Shown: one piece after another, positions 3,720 to 35,044 of the stretch
How the letters are laid out: every line of letters starts with the position of its first letter
Position numbering within the stretch: the stretch's first letter is position 1
Translations under genes and position numbers: made by a program
Notes under the pieces: generated by a model
Seen by the model: the letters and a program-made list of their open reading frames with translations, nothing else
Database searches by the model: none
Told to the model about the DNA's origin: nothing
Assembly: GCA_024275365.1 (NCBI GenBank)
Contig: JAJRZG010000255.1
Location: forward strand, 1-35,400
Source of the DNA: Planctomycetota bacterium
GTDB lineage: Bacteria; Planctomycetota; Phycisphaerae; Phycisphaerales; UBA1924
DNA length: 35,400 nucleotides
Direction: 5' to 3'

Positions 3720-3744
3720 CCACTCTCCCGCTGGCTCGGTTCCC

Positions 3745-3962
3745 GGTGCAACGGCTCTCCGAGCCGTGCATGTCGCGTGCGCACCTCTTTTTTTGAACGC
3801 CGATACTCCATGTTTTTACGAGCCCCGAGCGCAAGCCCGAGAGAAGGGAATGTCCAGCATCGCAGACAAAGCCCGACCCTGTGCTCGCGTACAGGGCTCG
3901 TAGAGACACACACAAAGTCACACAATCCGTATCACACGCACGGCTCGGAGAGCCGTCCCACC
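3745..3962. repeat. Inverted pair of family-A palindromes enclosing a family-B element
   Basis: The gene-free stretch 3720-4140 is mostly repeats. A family-A palindrome (core ACGGCTCTCCGAGCCGT) sits at about 3745-3768. Its inverted partner sits at about 3938-3962, with a variant outer end (CCCACC instead of GCCACC). Between them lies one family-B element (3817-3902). The arrangement is one palindromic repeat nested inside another. From 3963 to 4140 I see only a short hairpin before the STAS gene. Confidence 0.8.
3817..3902 (+). repeat. Family-B repeat copy 1 (86 bp, paired GCAA hairpins)
   Basis: It begins TACGAGCCC and ends GGGCTCGTA, so the ends can pair. Inside the left end is a hairpin around a GCAA loop, and inside the right end is a hairpin whose complementary strand also has a GCAA loop. 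A second copy of exactly the same length lies at 16525-16610. Confidence 0.8.
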
Positions 3963-4073
3963 GGGGACCGGATTCCGCACACTTCCCCAATCCACTCAGC
4001 CCGGATACGCATCACACCCCGTCCCTGCACGCAAGATGGGCTGCACGAATGCTCGCCCTGCCCTTCCCTGTTT

Positions 4074-16494: not shown

Positions 16495-16524
16495 CGCGGT
16501 GTACGAAGAGTTCATGGGTGTCTT

Positions 16525-16610
16525 TACGAGCCCCGAGCGCAAGCTCGGGTTTGTGAATGGCCGATTGTCACAGGCATGTCCCAATCCTGTGCTTGCGCAC
16601 AGGGCTCGTA
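16525..16610 (+). repeat. Family-B repeat copy 2 (86 bp, paired GCAA hairpins)
   Basis: Same orientation and the same length as the copy at 3817-3902. The ends are TACGAGCCC and GGGCTCGTA. The left hairpin is CCCGAGC-GCAA-GCTCGGG. The right hairpin read on the minus strand is CCTGTGC-GCAA-GCACAGG. It lies between the end of the RNase tail frame and the convergent sulfotransferase gene and may act as a terminator for both. Confidence 0.8.
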
Positions 16611-16639
16611 GAAACACACGAGCTATATTCGCAATCTCT

Positions 16640-19274: not shown

Positions 19275-20267
19275 CTACGCCCCTTTACGGATTGACTCGG
19301 CGCACCCTGGGATCAGGTCGGCAAGCTCGCTTGCAAGCAGGCCAGCCGAGGCTTTGTGCTGCTCGGCCCAGCGTTCGCCAGCGAGGGCATGGACCAACAC
19401 ACCGGCGCGGGCGGTCTCGAAGAGATCAGAGGTATGTACCGGCTGGAAGCCGGTCCCACGGGCTGAAACCGCCTGGACGCCGGTCCCGCATCCTGCAACA
19501 CCCTGCCCGATCAGCCCTGCAATCACGCCGGTGAGCACATCGCCTGTGCCGGCGGTGCCCAGGCAGGCGTGCCCCCTCGGGCAGACCCACAAGCGGTGGC
19601 CATCGGTGACGACTGTGCCCGCGCCCTTGAGCACCACGATGCACCCGAGCTTCTGGGCCATCGCTTGGGCAGCAGCCGGGCGTTGGGCGGGGTCGGTCGG
19701 GTCGAGCGTGATCTTGAGCGGCCCAGCCAGCCTTCGGAACTCGCCGGGGTGGGGTGTCAGGACAGCAGAGGCCCGGAAGTCGCGGGCAAGCTCAGGAATG
19801 CCGGCAAGGGCGTTGATCGCGTCGGCATCGACAACAACCGGGAGGGTGTCCTGCATCACCGCGCGGAGCGTGACCGCTTCGACTCCCTGGCTACCCTCGG
19901 TGTCACTCCCCAGCCCAGGCCCAACGGCGAGGGCATCGCACGAAGCAAAGACCGAATCAAGCAGGGCGGCTGCCTCGTGGGCGATGATGGTGCCCGTCGA
20001 GTCTGTCGGCAGCACGACTCCCGTTGCTGAGGGCGTGATGGCGAGCGCCCCGGCAAGCACGGGCTCGGGGCAGACAAGCCGGGCGAGCCCAGCGCCAGCC
20101 CGGAGCGCACCGAGGGCTGCGAGGGCGGGCGCACCGATCATCATCGCGCCACCCGAGACACACCCCCCGATCACCGCGATGGTGCCAAACGATCCCTTGT
20201 GCCCGAGGGGGTCACGGGCAGGCAGGCAGGGCTCTGGGAGGTCTGGTTCGGGGGGGTCTCTTGTCAC
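19275..20267 (-). CDS. nnrD: ADP-dependent NAD(P)H-hydrate dehydratase with palindromic-repeat insert
   Basis: 330 residues from a GTG at 20267, overlapping the upstream stop (GTGA). It repairs hydrated NAD(P)H, using ADP. Ribokinase-like signatures: GHKGSFGTIAVIGG, a Gly/Ala-rich nucleotide region (GGAMMIGAPALAALGALRAG), DALAVGPGLG, VVVDADAINAL, LTPHPGEF, VVLKGAGTVVTDG, and GTAGTGDVLTGVIAGL. The epimerase domain found in fused Nnr proteins is absent. Between GVIAGLIGQGVA and LFETARAGVLVHALAG, which normally lie close together, there is an insert of about 20 residues encoded by two family-C repeats (GTGVQAV and GTGFQPV). The insert is in frame, so the protein is probably still made. Confidence 0.9.
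   Translation of the reverse strand: MTRDPPEPDLPEPCLPARDPLGHKGSFGTIAVIGGCVSGGAMMIGAPALAALGALRAGAGLARLVCPEPVLAGALAITPSATGVVLPTDSTGTIIAHEAAALLDSVFASCDALAVGPGLGSDTEGSQGVEAVTLRAVMQDTLPVVVDADAINALAGIPELARDFRASAVLTPHPGEFRRLAGPLKITLDPTDPAQRPAAAQAMAQKLGCIVVLKGAGTVVTDGHRLWVCPRGHACLGTAGTGDVLTGVIAGLIGQGVAGCGTGVQAVSARGTGFQPVHTSDLFETARAGVLVHALAGERWAEQHKASAGLLASELADLIPGCAESIRKGA
19437..19490. repeat. Tandem family-C palindromes inside nnrD
   Basis: Two direct copies of a CCGGCTGGAAGCCGGTCCC-like unit, at 19437-19459 and 19466-19490. The second has variant arms (ACCGCCTGGACGCCGGTCCC). Both lie inside the reading frame of nnrD. The shared core GGCTTCCAGCC is also seen at 24929, 25007, 31881 and 32029. Confidence 0.85.
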
Positions 20268-21739
20268 TTGACCTCCTCGATGTCGATCTCGAGTGTACCA
20301 AGGAGCGGTGCGATGCCCGCAAGCGAGCTGACTGCCTTGCCCTCTTTGAGGCTGCTGACACCAAAGGCGATGTGGGTCGCGTCAAACGGGATGCGATCGC
20401 TCAGAGTTGCGTCGAGGTCGATCCACGCTGGGCCTGCGTCGGTCTCAAGGAGTGCCTGCGTCCACATGTGGTAGCCAAAGACATTGCGCTGCCCGGCAAA
20501 GCGATCGACATAGACCACCCCCACCGCGACGCGCGAGGGGATGCCCGCCGCCCGCAACATGGCTGCCAGCAGCACACCGTGCTCGGAGCAGTCGCCCTTG
20601 CTCGATCGGGCGGTCTCCGAGGCGGTTGCAAAGGCGGTGCCGAGGTTTTTGTCGGAAATATAAGTGAATACGAACCGACGCAATGCCTCCGCCTGGACAC
20701 GAGGCGCATCACCCGCGCTTGCAAGAGCCTGAGCAGTCAGCTCCTGGATCAGCTCATCATCTGCATCGGCATAGGTCGTCGAGGCGAGGAAGAGCTGACG
20801 GTCGGTGTCGCCCGCGGGCACGGGGTTGTTCATGTCCACCGTCACCCGCACCTCGCCGCCAGCGAGCAGCTCGACCTGCTGATACGCCGAGGTCGGCAGC
20901 TCGGGCATCGTCCCCTCGCTCAGACGGACCCTGTAGACCCCCCGCTGTTGCAGGCGGGCAGCACGAATCACCTTGTCCGGCTTGATAAAGGTCGAGACCA
21001 GTATCTCGGCGGGGTCGGCCTCTTCGAGGGCTCGCTCCCGGGTCGAGGCAATCATGGTCATCTCAAGCCCGCCGAGGTTTGTTTCGTTTCGCAGCATCGC
21101 TCCATCAATGGTCAGCCACTCCTTTGCCTCCAAGGTGACCGCGCCGACCTTGGTCGTGCTGGTGACACTGAAGCAGTCTGTCTCTCTCCCGAGCACCTCG
21201 ATCTCTGTCGGGGTGATCTGCGTTCTGACTATCTTGACGATCGCCAAGCCGTTGCTGGGGTCGAGCGTGTGGCTGGTGATCTCGGTCGCACCGGATGCCA
21301 GCCGCTTGGCAAGAAACCGCGACGCCGCAGCCGGGGGGAGCCAGTCACTCTTGGGCAACGGCATGGAGGACTCCCGGGTCTTGCCGTCCTGGGTGCTGGT
21401 GATGTGTACTTCGCCATCTTGGAAGACATAGCGTGTTTCGATGGGAACCTGGCCGAGCGACTGGCTGACAGTCATCTCGATGGGTTCGCCCTTGAGCGAT
21501 TCAACGAACGAGCTGGTTGTCCGGATGGTGATTGCCTGGTCGGAGCGGCCAACCGACATCGACATCTCGGAATATGTGGTGATGGTGTCTTCATCAGTGG
21601 TGACGGTCTCGTGCGACCACCCCGACCGCGAATCGGATATCCATATCTCGTACCAGCGGTCGGTGTCCTGGGCGCTTGCGCGCGACACGAGCACGGGGAG
21701 GAGCAGGAGGACACACGCGAGACAGGGGTGGATCTTCAT
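20264..21739 (-). CDS. Exported transglutaminase-like protein
   Basis: 491 residues. There is a signal peptide at the N-terminus (CLACVLLLLPVLVSRASA, then QDTDRWYEIW). The first 300 residues are strand-rich and bind no motif I know. From about 340 a transglutaminase-core domain follows, with the catalytic Cys in KGDCSEHGVLLAAML, His in NVFGYHMWTQALL and Asp in WIDLDATL, so the triad is complete. Such domains in bacteria act as proteases or amide-bond enzymes in the envelope. The gene overlaps nnrD by four bases, an operon with no obvious shared task. The class with a long N-terminal region resembles planctomycete and myxobacterial exported transglutaminase-like proteins. Confidence 0.85.
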   Translation of the reverse strand: MKIHPCLACVLLLLPVLVSRASAQDTDRWYEIWISDSRSGWSHETVTTDEDTITTYSEMSMSVGRSDQAITIRTTSSFVESLKGEPIEMTVSQSLGQVPIETRYVFQDGEVHITSTQDGKTRESSMPLPKSDWLPPAAASRFLAKRLASGATEITSHTLDPSNGLAIVKIVRTQITPTEIEVLGRETDCFSVTSTTKVGAVTLEAKEWLTIDGAMLRNETNLGGLEMTMIASTRERALEEADPAEILVSTFIKPDKVIRAARLQQRGVYRVRLSEGTMPELPTSAYQQVELLAGGEVRVTVDMNNPVPAGDTDRQLFLASTTYADADDELIQELTAQALASAGDAPRVQAEALRRFVFTYISDKNLGTAFATASETARSSKGDCSEHGVLLAAMLRAAGIPSRVAVGVVYVDRFAGQRNVFGYHMWTQALLETDAGPAWIDLDATLSDRIPFDATHIAFGVSSLKEGKAVSSLAGIAPLLGTLEIDIEEVK

Positions 21740-21831: not shown

Positions 21832-22122
21832 TTTTTACCGCAGAGGACGCAGAGTTGCGCTGAGGAAAGGCATGAAGATATTTTTAACCACAGATGAACA
21901 CAGATGAACACAGATAAAGGCAAGAAGATGAGTGGTGGCACGGCTCTCCGAGCCGTGCGAGTTGGATAATGCCCGAAACTCACGGCTCGGAGAGCCGTGC
22001 CACCATGTCCTTCATCTTTCTTCATCTGCCTTTATCTGTGTCAATCTGTGTTCATCTGTGGCAATACTGCCTTTTTCCTCTGCCTTCACTCAGCGAAACT
22101 CTGCGTCCTCAGCGGTAAAAAT
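21832..22122. repeat. Three-level nested inverted repeat (families H, I and A)
   Basis: The gene-free stretch 21740-22137 is almost all repeats. Outer arms (H): TTTTTACCGCAGAGGACGC at about 21835, inverted as GCGTCCTCAGCGGTAAAAA at about 22102-22120. Middle arms (I): AACCACAGATGAACACAGAT at 21886-21905, extended by further copies of the unit, inverted at about 22021-22061. Inner pair (A): 21934-21957 and 21981-22004. Each layer is an imperfect palindrome around the next. It lies between the hydrolase stop and the transglutaminase start and is probably transcribed. Confidence 0.9.
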
Positions 22123-22137
22123 AGAGATGTATCGCCC

Positions 22138-23439
22138 TTACTGCTCGAGTGCATCGAGCCAGTCGAGCAGCGCGGGGGCTTTGGCGGGCAAATACGCCAA
22201 GAAGAGCACCTCGTGCCCGACCGGGGCTGCCCATCGTTCGGGCTCGCCGAGGCGTTGCCAGAGCAGGTCGCCAGTTGCTGCGGGCACCGCCTTGTCTGTG
22301 CTGCCGTGGAGCATGAGGATGGGGATATCAGCCATGCGCGGGGCGGTGTGGTAGCTGTCGAAGGGGGCAGCGTCGAGGTAGAGCTTGGTGAAGCGGTCGG
22401 CTGCATCAGAGAGAGCCGGATCGCGCACGGCTCGGAGAGCCGTGCCACCGTCGGCATCGTCAGCCCATTCGATGCGCACCGCGTTGATCCAGTCGGCGTA
22501 GTTGCTCTCCATCGCGATGGCAGCAAAGTCACACCCCGCCCCGATAAAGACGGCCGCCTTGTATGGACCGGGCTCCCGGGCGACAACGGTGGGCAGGAGC
22601 ATCCCGCCGCCACTCATGCCCAGAGCAACGCGGGTGTCGATCGGGATTTCGGGGCGGGTGTCTGCGATAAAGGCACAAACCGCTTCGGTCGCAAGGGCGT
22701 TCTCGACCGCGCGGTCGCCGAGCTCGTCTGCGATCTCGCGGGCGATGGCTTCGAGGTTGCCCTCGGGGTCGAGCGTGTACGACACTCGTTCTGTAAAGCG
22801 GGAGGAGTGGGTGAGCATGCGGAGCACATGCCAGCCGCGATCGCGGAGCATCCCGACGAGGCTGTCGATCATGGCTTCGGGTGTGCCGAACATCCCGGGG
22901 AGGAAAACAACCACGCCCTTTGATGGTGTCGCGTCTCCTGTACGGGGCGCATAGAGGGCAAACCAGGTGCGTTGGAGTTGCACCGTGTCACCTTCGCGTC
23001 GGTCGGCAGAGAGGTATTCGTAGGCTGCCATGGGCTTTCCTGCCAGGCGAGCGGTGCGCGAGAGCTTGCCCTCGGGCATGCGCACGACGACGGATCCCTC
23101 GCCCTCGAAGCGGACCGTGCTGTTCTTGAGCATGTCGGTTATCCGCGTCGCGTCGGCGACATCGGCCTCCTCCCAGCCCATGCCGAACTCGCTGACCCAG
23201 CGCAACGCCCATGGCCCGACCTTGAGCTCTCGCACCAAAACTGCTTCCCGGGTCGGCCAGGGGAGGGGCTCGGTGGCTGCCGCGGCTGGGGGTTCGGGCT
23301 GATCGGGCTGATCGGGCTGAGTGGCGCACGCAGCCTGAGAGAGTGTCGCTATCGCGGCGAGCAGGAGACACGCGATCCCCCTCCTCCTTGAGGAGGGGGT
23401 GGTCGCGCCAGTGACCGGGGGAGGTGCGGAACTGCACAA
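22138..23439 (-). CDS. Exported alpha/beta hydrolase with repeat-derived N-terminus and internal insert
   Basis: About 433 residues if started at the TTG at 23439; the true start is unclear. The frame is open to an ATG at 23733, but 23377-23676 is repeat DNA and 23733 lies inside galE. A lipoprotein-like signal is seen (RRRGIACLLLAAIATLSQAAC), with its Arg run encoded by a family-E repeat. The hydrolase fold shows VVVFLPGMFGTPEAMIDSL, then the nucleophile elbow GMSGGGMLLP, Asp in MLHGSTDKAVPA and His in APVGHEVLFL. The segment DGGTALRAVRD is encoded by a family-A palindrome. The substrate is not evident; an esterase or carboxymethylenebutenolidase-like enzyme is likely. Confidence 0.75.
   Translation of the reverse strand: MCSSAPPPVTGATTPSSRRRGIACLLLAAIATLSQAACATQPDQPDQPEPPAAAATEPLPWPTREAVLVRELKVGPWALRWVSEFGMGWEEADVADATRITDMLKNSTVRFEGEGSVVVRMPEGKLSRTARLAGKPMAAYEYLSADRREGDTVQLQRTWFALYAPRTGDATPSKGVVVFLPGMFGTPEAMIDSLVGMLRDRGWHVLRMLTHSSRFTERVSYTLDPEGNLEAIAREIADELGDRAVENALATEAVCAFIADTRPEIPIDTRVALGMSGGGMLLPTVVAREPGPYKAAVFIGAGCDFAAIAMESNYADWINAVRIEWADDADGGTALRAVRDPALSDAADRFTKLYLDAAPFDSYHTAPRMADIPILMLHGSTDKAVPAATGDLLWQRLGEPERWAAPVGHEVLFLAYLPAKAPALLDWLDALEQ
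22426..22449. repeat. Family-A palindrome inside the hydrolase gene
   Basis: A single full copy (palindrome ACGGCTCGGAGAGCCGT, then GCCACC) in the coding region. On the minus strand it encodes GGTALRAV without breaking the frame. Confidence 0.9.
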
Positions 23440-23676
23440 ACACCCAAACCCAATGACTTTCGCAGACAATGCACGGATTGCAGCAGAATACGGTGTGGAG
23501 CGAGGCACGCGGGTCGATGTAGAGTGCCGCACCTCCCCCGGCCATCGCTTCGCTCGGCCACCCCCTCCGCAGGGCGGAGGGGGCTCGACGCACCTCCCCC
23601 GGCCATCGCTTCGCTCGGCCACCCCCTCCGCAGGGCGGAGGGGGATCGGGCGGGCGAGATGCCCGCCCCACTGGAG
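23377..23676. repeat. Cluster of three family-E repeats and one family-F repeat
   Basis: E1 at 23377-23429 lies in one direction. E2 (23528-23583) and E3 (23589-23644) lie in tandem in the other. Each E unit has a first hairpin of the CCCCCTCC/GGAGGGGG kind, a second hairpin of variable sequence, and GGGGGAGGTGCG at the far end. E3 is followed by family F (23645-23676, hairpin GCGGGCGAGATGCCCGC). The unique sequence 23430-23527 between E1 and E2 shows no gene. E1 abuts the signal-peptide coding region of the hydrolase. Confidence 0.9.
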
Positions 23677-23690
23677 GGGAATGCAGCAGG

Positions 23691-24719
23691 TCATGATGCG
23701 TACCCGTTGGGGTGTTCGCTGAACCAGTGCCATGCGGTTGCGACAGCCTCGTCGAGGTTGGTGTATTTCGCTGACCAGCCAAGCTCAGCCTTGATCTTGG
23801 CGGGGTTGGCAAAGAGCTCGGGTGGGTCCCCCGGCCTGCGGTCGCCCTTGCGGACCTCGAAATCTTTCCCAGACACGCGGCGGACGCTCTCGATTACCTC
23901 GCGCACGGAGTATCCATTCCCGATGCCGAGGTTGTAGGCTCTTGATTGGCCGGGCTTGAGGTAACGCATGACCGCGACATGCGCATCAATCAGGTCATCG
24001 ACATGGACATAGTCGCGGATGCAGGTGCCATCGGGTGTGGGGTAGTCCTCACCAAAGATCGTGATGGCGTCTCGCTGGCCCAGGGCAGCCTGAATGATGA
24101 CGGGGATGAGGTGGGTCTCGGGGTCGTGGTCTTCGCCGATGAGCCCGTCAGGGTCAGACCCCGCGACATTGAAATATCGCAGGGCGGCAAAGCCGAAGTC
24201 CCTGCCCTCTTTGGCAGCAGCAGCGCAGGCATCACGGAGCATGTGCTCGACATGGAGTTTGCTCATGCCATAGGGGTTGATGGGGGCTTGGGGGCAGGAC
24301 TCGGGGATGGGGATGAACTCGGGGGTCGGCTCGCCATAGGTCGCGCAGGTTGAAGAGAAGATGAACCGGCTGACCCCGGCTTCGAGTGCTTCCTCGATGA
24401 GGGTGAGTGCTGAGGCCGTGTTGTTGCGGTAGTACCGTAACGGCTGCTCGACGCTTTCCCCGACCTGGGCGAGGGCTGCAAAGTGCATGATCGAGTCGAT
24501 CTTGTGGTCTCGCAGGGTTGCCCGGACCTGCTCGCGGTCGCCGATGTCTGCCTTGACAAACGAGAGGCGGCCGTCGGCGATGGTCTTGAGGGCTTCGATT
24601 GCCTCGAGATGCCCGACGGAGAGGTTGTCGAGTGCGACGACGGTTTCTCCCTCTGCCAGGAGGCGTCTGACCGCGTGAGATCCGATGTAGCCTGCGCCGC
24701 CTGTCACGAGGAAAGTCAT
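23691..24719 (-). CDS. galE: UDP-glucose 4-epimerase
   Basis: 342 residues from the ATG at 24719, with AAAGGAG five bases upstream. A longer frame adds nine residues but has no ribosome site. It is a short-chain dehydrogenase that interconverts UDP-glucose and UDP-galactose. NAD-binding VTGGAGYIGSHAV is at the start. Then come LDNLSVGHLEAI, FVKADIGD, IMHFAALAQVGESV, the Ser-Tyr-Lys triad (SSTCATYGEP and YGMSKLHVEHML), RYFNVAGSDPDGLIGEDHDPETHL and the specific CIRDYVHVDDL. All match GalE closely. It supplies sugar nucleotides for envelope glycans, and the glycosyltransferase 4.5 kb downstream could be a user. Confidence 0.95.
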   Translation of the reverse strand: MTFLVTGGAGYIGSHAVRRLLAEGETVVALDNLSVGHLEAIEALKTIADGRLSFVKADIGDREQVRATLRDHKIDSIMHFAALAQVGESVEQPLRYYRNNTASALTLIEEALEAGVSRFIFSSTCATYGEPTPEFIPIPESCPQAPINPYGMSKLHVEHMLRDACAAAAKEGRDFGFAALRYFNVAGSDPDGLIGEDHDPETHLIPVIIQAALGQRDAITIFGEDYPTPDGTCIRDYVHVDDLIDAHVAVMRYLKPGQSRAYNLGIGNGYSVREVIESVRRVSGKDFEVRKGDRRPGDPPELFANPAKIKAELGWSAKYTNLDEAVATAWHWFSEHPNGYAS

Positions 24720-34762: not shown

Positions 34763-34824
34763 GGGAATATCCGGTTCTTGGGGAGCAGGCGGGCAGAAAG
34801 TCTAGGCCGACACCCCGGGATAGA

Positions 34825-35024
34825 GCCCCTCGCGCACGCGAGGGCTTGATCCCCCTCCGCTTTGCGGAGGGGGTGGCCGAGCGAAGCGATGGTCGGGGGA
34901 GGTGCGTCTTGGGGGTTGATCTGACGGCAACTGCACTTTGGACAGTTCGCACCTCCCCCGGTCGCGTGCGCGACCACCCCCTCCTCAAGGAGGAGGGGGA
35001 GCAACCCCTCGCGTGCGCGAGTGG
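34825..35024. repeat. Nested inverted repeat: outer CTCGCG palindromes, inner family-E pair
   Basis: Outer palindromes are CCCTCGCGCACGCGAGGG (34826-34843) and CTCGCGTGCGCGAG (35008-35021). The inner family-E units are E6 (34851-34906) and E7 (34948-35000), inverted. E6 has the GCGAAGC-type second hairpin, and E7 has GGTCGCGTGCGCGACC. The region lies between the MATE start and the pdxA end and holds no gene. Confidence 0.88.
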
Positions 35025-35044
35025 TTCAATACCAAAGAAAACCT

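Follow-up and report, generated by a model that had tools for sequence, protein, structure and literature searches.

Three concentric hairpin repeats in a Phycisphaerales genome, and a possible mobile element built around the GxxExxY nuclease gene

What brings three palindromic repeats to lie one inside another, on one centre, between two genes of a planctomycete? This question is raised by positions 21832-22121 of the window, the 35,400-nt stretch of a Planctomycetota contig analysed here; the host assembly comprises 3.22 Mb in 350 contigs and is 84.85% complete. Our main reading, to which we give a probability of roughly 0.7, is that three elements inserted one after another between the same two genes, and that the outer and middle layers represent two lineages of a mobile hairpin element, here without the GxxExxY gene which its complete form carries.

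Geometry, folding and setting of the nest

The nest consists of three concentric inverted repeats, whose centres agree to within about 8 nt. The features of the locus are as follows:

20264..21739, minus strand: neighbouring gene, transglutaminase-like
21832..21872, plus strand: left arm of the outer hairpin, RAG-type, TTTTTACCGCAGAGGACGCAGAGTTGCGCTGAGGAAAGGCA, 41 nt; arms 90% complementary, with the design of the arms that bracket GxxExxY genes
21888..21922, plus strand: left arm of the middle hairpin, GAT-type, CCACAGATGAACACAGATGAACACAGATAAAGGCA, 35 nt; arms 94% complementary
21933..21957, plus strand: left copy of the inner REP-like unit, TGGTGGCACGGCTCTCCGAGCCGTG, 25 nt; copies 100% complementary
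21958..21980, no strand: loop of the REP-like dimer, 23 nt; related loops occur at other loci in both orientations
21981..22005, minus strand: right copy of the inner REP-like unit, pairing with 21933..21957
22027..22061, minus strand: right arm of the middle hairpin, GAT-type, pairing with 21888..21922
22081..22121, minus strand: right arm of the outer hairpin, RAG-type, pairing with 21832..21872
22138..23733, minus strand: neighbouring ORF with a weak match to a hydrolase (S33)

The nest is intergenic, and both adjoining genes lie on the minus strand. As single-stranded DNA, the 301-nt nest stretch folds at -118.5 kcal/mol, compared with -36.7 +/- 3.3 for shuffled sequences (z -24.6, 0 of 100). 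The arm coordinates and this fold bear out the first-pass annotation in its claim that three palindromic repeats are nested on a common centre.

The very stable fold, the intergenic location and the maintained complementarity of the arms would also suit a device that acts in RNA and is kept by selection, for instance a bidirectional terminator or an mRNA stabiliser. However, TTTTT stands before the stem and AAAAA after it on the plus strand, and the same holds on the other strand, whereas an intrinsic terminator requires the opposite arrangement; the nest has no Rfam match, and such elements are patchy in occurrence and missing from relatives. An intrinsic terminator or a known RNA was rejected on the T/A arrangement and the Rfam result, and we regard an RNA-level device in general as very improbable.

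The window holds further repeats. At 3737-3970 is a second nest, in which copies of the inner REP family form the outer arms and a different hairpin (3811-3836/3883-3908, of TTTACGAGCCCCGAGCGCAAGC type, which recurs at 16518-16617) lies inside. An inverted repeat of 66 nt, 83% complementary with a spacing of 85 nt, occupies 34817-35033, and clustered CCCCCTCC..GGAGGGGG inverted and direct repeats are found at 23373-23648, in or near coding sequence.

The outer and middle arms and the GxxExxY gene

The outer and middle layers share one arm design, namely ACC followed by about three units of 8-10 bp, RCNRAG or RCNGAT. Both window arms read T-tract, RACC, RCNGAK-type units and AAAGGCA, and both agree with the design when set against the arms of 80 gene-bearing elements. 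The first-pass annotation had called the layers unrelated; for these two this does not hold, as they represent a single cross-phylum design and two clades of one gene family. Three arm types are distinguished: RAG (ACAGAG, GCAAAG, ACGAAG and others), GAT and GAA.

The middle motif, CCACAGATGAACACAGAT, occurs in at least 120 stretches of a species-representative genome collection; the matches listed include Planctomycetota, Cyanobacteria, Gammaproteobacteria, Acidobacteria, Verrucomicrobia, Chloroflexi, Latescibacterota, NC10, Nitrospinota, Binatia, Spirochaetes and others. Among the matches listed, a partner arm lies within 900 nt of 72 of 130 middle arms, compared with 0 of 120 for a shuffled arm, and loops longer than 330 nt are seen only at L090, L095 and L139, each with a GxxExxY gene. 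The middle-type motif thus brackets GxxExxY genes in NC10 (L095), Phycisphaerae (L090) and Chloroflexi (L139). The first-pass annotation had placed strings like those of the two outer families in many distant environmental genomes, which is borne out for the middle family and, in the form of gene-bracketing arms, for the outer type.

Bracketing is a property of the gene family at large. Inverted arms of the shared design flank 80 of 89 GxxExxY genes but 4 of 720 control windows at an inverted score of at least 14 (77 genes and 0 control windows at 15 or above); the 89 PF13366 genes were drawn from repeat-chosen genomes and from a phylum sample chosen independently of the repeat, and since they are mostly best-scoring genes, this 90% is not an unbiased rate. 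Of four plasmid records examined, three show the bracket as well. A complete element consists of a left arm, a GxxExxY gene and a right arm, with arms of about 30 nt and a gene of about 125-150 codons that matches the TIGR04256 and PF13366 models at 146 and 140.6 bits. Over 79 gene-bearing elements, the left arm and the ATG are a median of 4 nt apart, the stop codon and the right arm 5 nt; in 31 the start codon lies ahead of the left arm's end or within it. Edge repeats in these 79 are no longer than those of shuffled flank pairs, and hence no target-site duplication was detected.

Two plasmid elements deserve separate mention. On Sphingomonas plasmid NZ_CP155749.1, a GxxExxY element with CGCGAAG-type arms lies between fabD and fabG; on Fusobacteria plasmid CP102406.1, the repeats that flank the GxxExxY gene are direct, not inverted (CAGATTTAATCCGTGTACCTAT on both sides). 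Carriage by phages or plasmids was rejected: phages gave no match, only 8 of 72,556 plasmids did, and a single-sequence query against viral contigs found no relative.

The GxxExxY family (PF13366/TIGR04256) is a PD-(D/E)XK nuclease with no recombinase beside it. D, E-x-K and Q-x3-Y are conserved in 99-100% of 76 GxxExxY proteins, a pattern which we take to be that of RecB/Cas4-type PD-(D/E)XK nucleases. A sequence search for relatives of solved structure found none, and the family entries TIGR04256 and PF13366 give no function. In the open-access literature covered here, GxxExxY is named in two papers, neither of them on repeats, searches by sequence string returned unrelated papers only, and no description of a link between GxxExxY and hairpins was found.

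The type of arm follows the protein. In a tree trimmed of arm-encoded residues, with three long or ambiguous rows omitted, a single branch (100/99, all bootstraps) separates the RAG-arm genes from GAT and GAA. The three arm labels require 4 changes on the tree compared with 27 when shuffled, one label (L310) being counted as GAT on reading by eye, where a regular expression had given RAG. RAG-class arms match within each element at a mean score of 24, compared with 12 against other elements. The clades mix phyla, so that arm type tracks protein clade across phyla; arms and gene have therefore been inherited together. The GxxExxY protein may also read its arms, but the covariation speaks for joint inheritance, not for recognition.

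The same data bear on a different origin of the hairpins, in which the short hairpins would have come first and the GxxExxY gene would have invaded their loops, much like a homing endonuclease. The position of the gene is precisely the loop, its product is a lone nuclease without a recombinase, and gene-less hairpins are far commoner, with the gene at 3 loci among the 72 paired middle arms of the matches listed. The joint inheritance of arm type and protein clade favours one unit instead, as does the start of 31 of 79 genes inside an arm; moreover, the hairpins would still require a mover of their own. We consider the homing origin unlikely, though it is the main rival on mechanism; it concerns where the hairpins come from and not how they became nested, and its likelihood overlaps with that of our preferred reading.

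Distribution among relatives agrees with a link between repeat and gene. Across the phylum, 33 of 294 genomes carry the middle motif, a few unrelated ones being rich in it; the host genome has 47 matches and six sampled members of its family have 0. PF13366 is present in 31 of the 33 repeat-positive genomes and in 108 of the 261 repeat-negative ones (p 2e-9). Among 61 family genomes, 31 have a strong GxxExxY gene, and 13 of these carry at least four RAG repeats; of the 30 others, 2 do (p 0.002). The host genome is one of these two exceptions, and one relative (G384) likewise has many repeats without a strong GxxExxY gene. At the groEL-dnaJ site, two congeners carry a complete element; the stretches read from 18 further genomes, one of them a congener whose flank is 93% identical, showed none. 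The element is thus patchy both across genomes and at one well-aligned site. A GxxExxY element between groEL and dnaJ was seen at L288 and L291 (and L256), and the same neighbourhood appears in a Phycisphaerales genome of another collection.

In the family of the host, complete elements with the GxxExxY gene inside RAG-type arms were found in three genomes (G034, G095, G270), and no gene-bearing GAT-type element was found. The loops of the window nest hold no GxxExxY gene, and the window copies are therefore gene-less relatives rather than complete elements; no bracketed copy was found in the 85%-complete host assembly. Its single PF13366 gene is long, divergent and unbracketed, and similar weak-scoring, divergent copies occur in most family members. 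The host's own GxxExxY gene was accordingly rejected as the driver.

Layer combinations and the case for stepwise insertion

All three patterns are abundant in the host genome. The outer one gives 69 forward and 60 reverse matches with up to 3 mismatches (reversed-pattern control 8 and 9), the middle one 51 and 53 with up to 2 mismatches (control 4 and 3), and the inner one 136 and 138 with up to 3 mismatches (control 0). By hand count of the layer-annotated rows, with C249 added, there are about 36 two-sided outer or middle hairpins, of many layer compositions. About 8 loci have all three layers on the left and on the right, with arm sequences and junctions that differ; outer and inner occur without the middle at C158, C134, C15 and C221, the middle by itself at C250 and C284, the outer by itself at C145, C158, C162 and C222, and the middle on one side only at C119, C212 and C226. 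On contig C339 (locus L030), a complete nest has a fourth element inside its REP dimer.

These combinations allow two other histories to be weighed. First, the complete nest could be a single composite repeat that is copied whole, with partial nests as its decayed copies. There are indeed about 8 loci with all layers on both sides, and single junctions are near-identical between the window and C271, C339, C119 and C211. However, each of the four window junctions is closest to a different one of these loci, none of which matches the host flanks of the window nest. The outer arms agree better within a locus (mean 0.91) than between loci (0.77, p 3e-9; outer layer only, as the middle-layer extraction contained RAG arms), and outer with inner, middle alone, outer alone and many lone inner copies all occur. 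Layer combinations, arm matching and junction relatives speak against a single composite unit as the main explanation; this alternative is already largely contradicted, and we hold it to be distinctly improbable.

Second, hairpins might lengthen with no transposition involved, through extension of the palindrome or through template switching at a stalled fork, with conversion keeping the arms alike. Arms that match per locus while loci differ, the one-sided layers and the mosaic junctions could all be produced in this way. Against it, the same three families are found separately at many unrelated sites, and the RAG and GAT types are each tied to a gene lineage that spans many phyla; we judge such growth improbable. 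The differing nearest loci of the junctions and the per-locus match of the arms point to successive insertion, together with some mosaic exchange between nests.

Successive insertion was also the proposal of the first-pass annotation, and it is supported: each layer occurs without the others, the four junctions lead to four loci, and outer-alone loci, of the kind it had suggested looking for, exist. The same complete nest at many loci as one unit, which it had named as the contrary outcome, was not what we found.

The inner layer is of another kind. Its unit, GGCACGGCTCTCCGAGCCGTG, is a short imperfect palindrome with 136 + 138 matches, many of them as plus/minus pairs, as expected of REP and REPIN sequences. 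When a GTAG-type foot was sought, the palindrome proved to be preceded by GTGG, which PMC3733652 gives as a foot variant in O. terrae elements. The inner layer is a REP-like dimer, and a RAYT-type Y1 transposase is its probable mover. The best Y1_Tnp gene of the host genome scores 63.6 bits, and a RAYT-like match reaches 69 bits against the NCBIfam cut-off of 80 for REP_Tyr_transpos; no inner-REP copy was seen in the flanks read beside the Y1_Tnp genes ('6 mismatch-free reach'), and none of these genes qualifies as a cognate RAYT.

REP dimers are enriched in the hairpin loops. About 26 of the 36 two-sided hairpins contain the inner repeat; with loops of about 45 nt each, making up about 0.05% of the genome, an estimated 0.07 of the roughly 137 dimers would fall there by chance. 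That the inner repeat favours palindrome centres in general, as the first-pass annotation implied, does not follow: an enclosing palindrome was found around 0 of 15 dimers examined outside outer and middle hairpins. The inner REP therefore needs no palindrome, and the preference is contradicted as a rule for REP dimers. REP dimers inside longer palindromes have been described from A. variabilis, T. roseum and H. neapolitanus (PMC3733652, 2013), a direct precedent for the innermost step, which is thus known behaviour. There, REP-free target palindromes were not found in two of the three genomes, and the targets were tied to no gene family; here, the targets are related to GxxExxY elements, REP-free hairpins are present, and two hairpin layers are stacked.

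The order of the layers is constant in the host genome, where the outer lies outside the middle on every shared side (15 left and 14 right halves, 0 exceptions). In other phyla, RAG hairpins lie within GAT hairpins at L185, L189 and L198, which rules out a fixed rule of GAT into RAG; order here is therefore a matter of history. At L235, three GAT hairpins stand side by side with near-identical flanking spacer, a tandem duplication without nesting; nesting is thus not universal.

Proposed mechanism, known systems and significance

We propose the following sequence of events. A RAG hairpin would have inserted first at the intergenic site, a GAT hairpin would then have entered its loop, and a REP dimer the loop of the GAT hairpin; each loop, the position of the gene in the complete form, would host the next element. 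The target may be the loop of an extruded cruciform, as the first-pass annotation proposed. The layer order would then be the order of arrival in the host lineage; that it never varies in this genome is in keeping with RAG copies being more widespread in the family and with the lack of GAT copies in the sampled relatives. The gene-less copies of the host genome would derive from gene-bearing elements. As to the enzyme, the PD-(D/E)XK protein may cut its own repeats or their folded form, with repair copying the element into the break; cutting at the repeats, with repair spreading them, is the mechanism we favour, at about even odds. A hairpin around a nuclease gene in so many phyla suggests an unrecognised mobile element, the loops of which collect further insertions. 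Somewhat short of even odds, and tentatively, we put the broader view that GxxExxY, a lone RecB/Cas4-like nuclease, is the enzyme of an unrecognised pan-bacterial mobile class, with recognition of the tandem arm units coded by lineage (RAG, GAT, GAA) and gene-less hairpins spreading into earlier loops.

Several known systems resemble parts of this picture. REP/BIME and REPIN sequences with RAYT (TnpA-REP, Y1 HUH) are alike in their short palindromic units, inverted dimers and high copy number, and in having a single domesticated nuclease-type gene that is thought to mobilise gene-less copies; the likeness suits the innermost layer. The outer and middle arms differ in consisting of about three non-palindromic units without a GTAG/CGTC foot, and the gene linked to them encodes a PD-(D/E)XK and not a HUH enzyme. 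MITEs, which derive from insertion sequences by loss of the gene, share the inverted repeats, the gene-less multicopy state and a gene-bearing relative; however, the gene-bearing form here has neither transposase nor integrase, and the target-site duplication expected of a MITE was not detected in the 79 gene-bearing elements. Free-standing homing endonucleases are alike in that a nuclease gene stands by itself in the middle of a site that can be recognised, whereas the present element is multicopy, intergenic and enclosed in its own inverted repeats.

The link between a very common, anonymous interspersed repeat of environmental genomes and the GxxExxY family gives this family a testable role, and the pairing of arms with genes offers ready-made tests of sequence recognition. 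If the system is REP/RAYT-like with a different class of nuclease, the range of ways in which short palindromes spread would be wider. The order of layers would give relative dates for invasions within a genome; if this is true, genomes accumulate concentric records of the successive invasions they have received.
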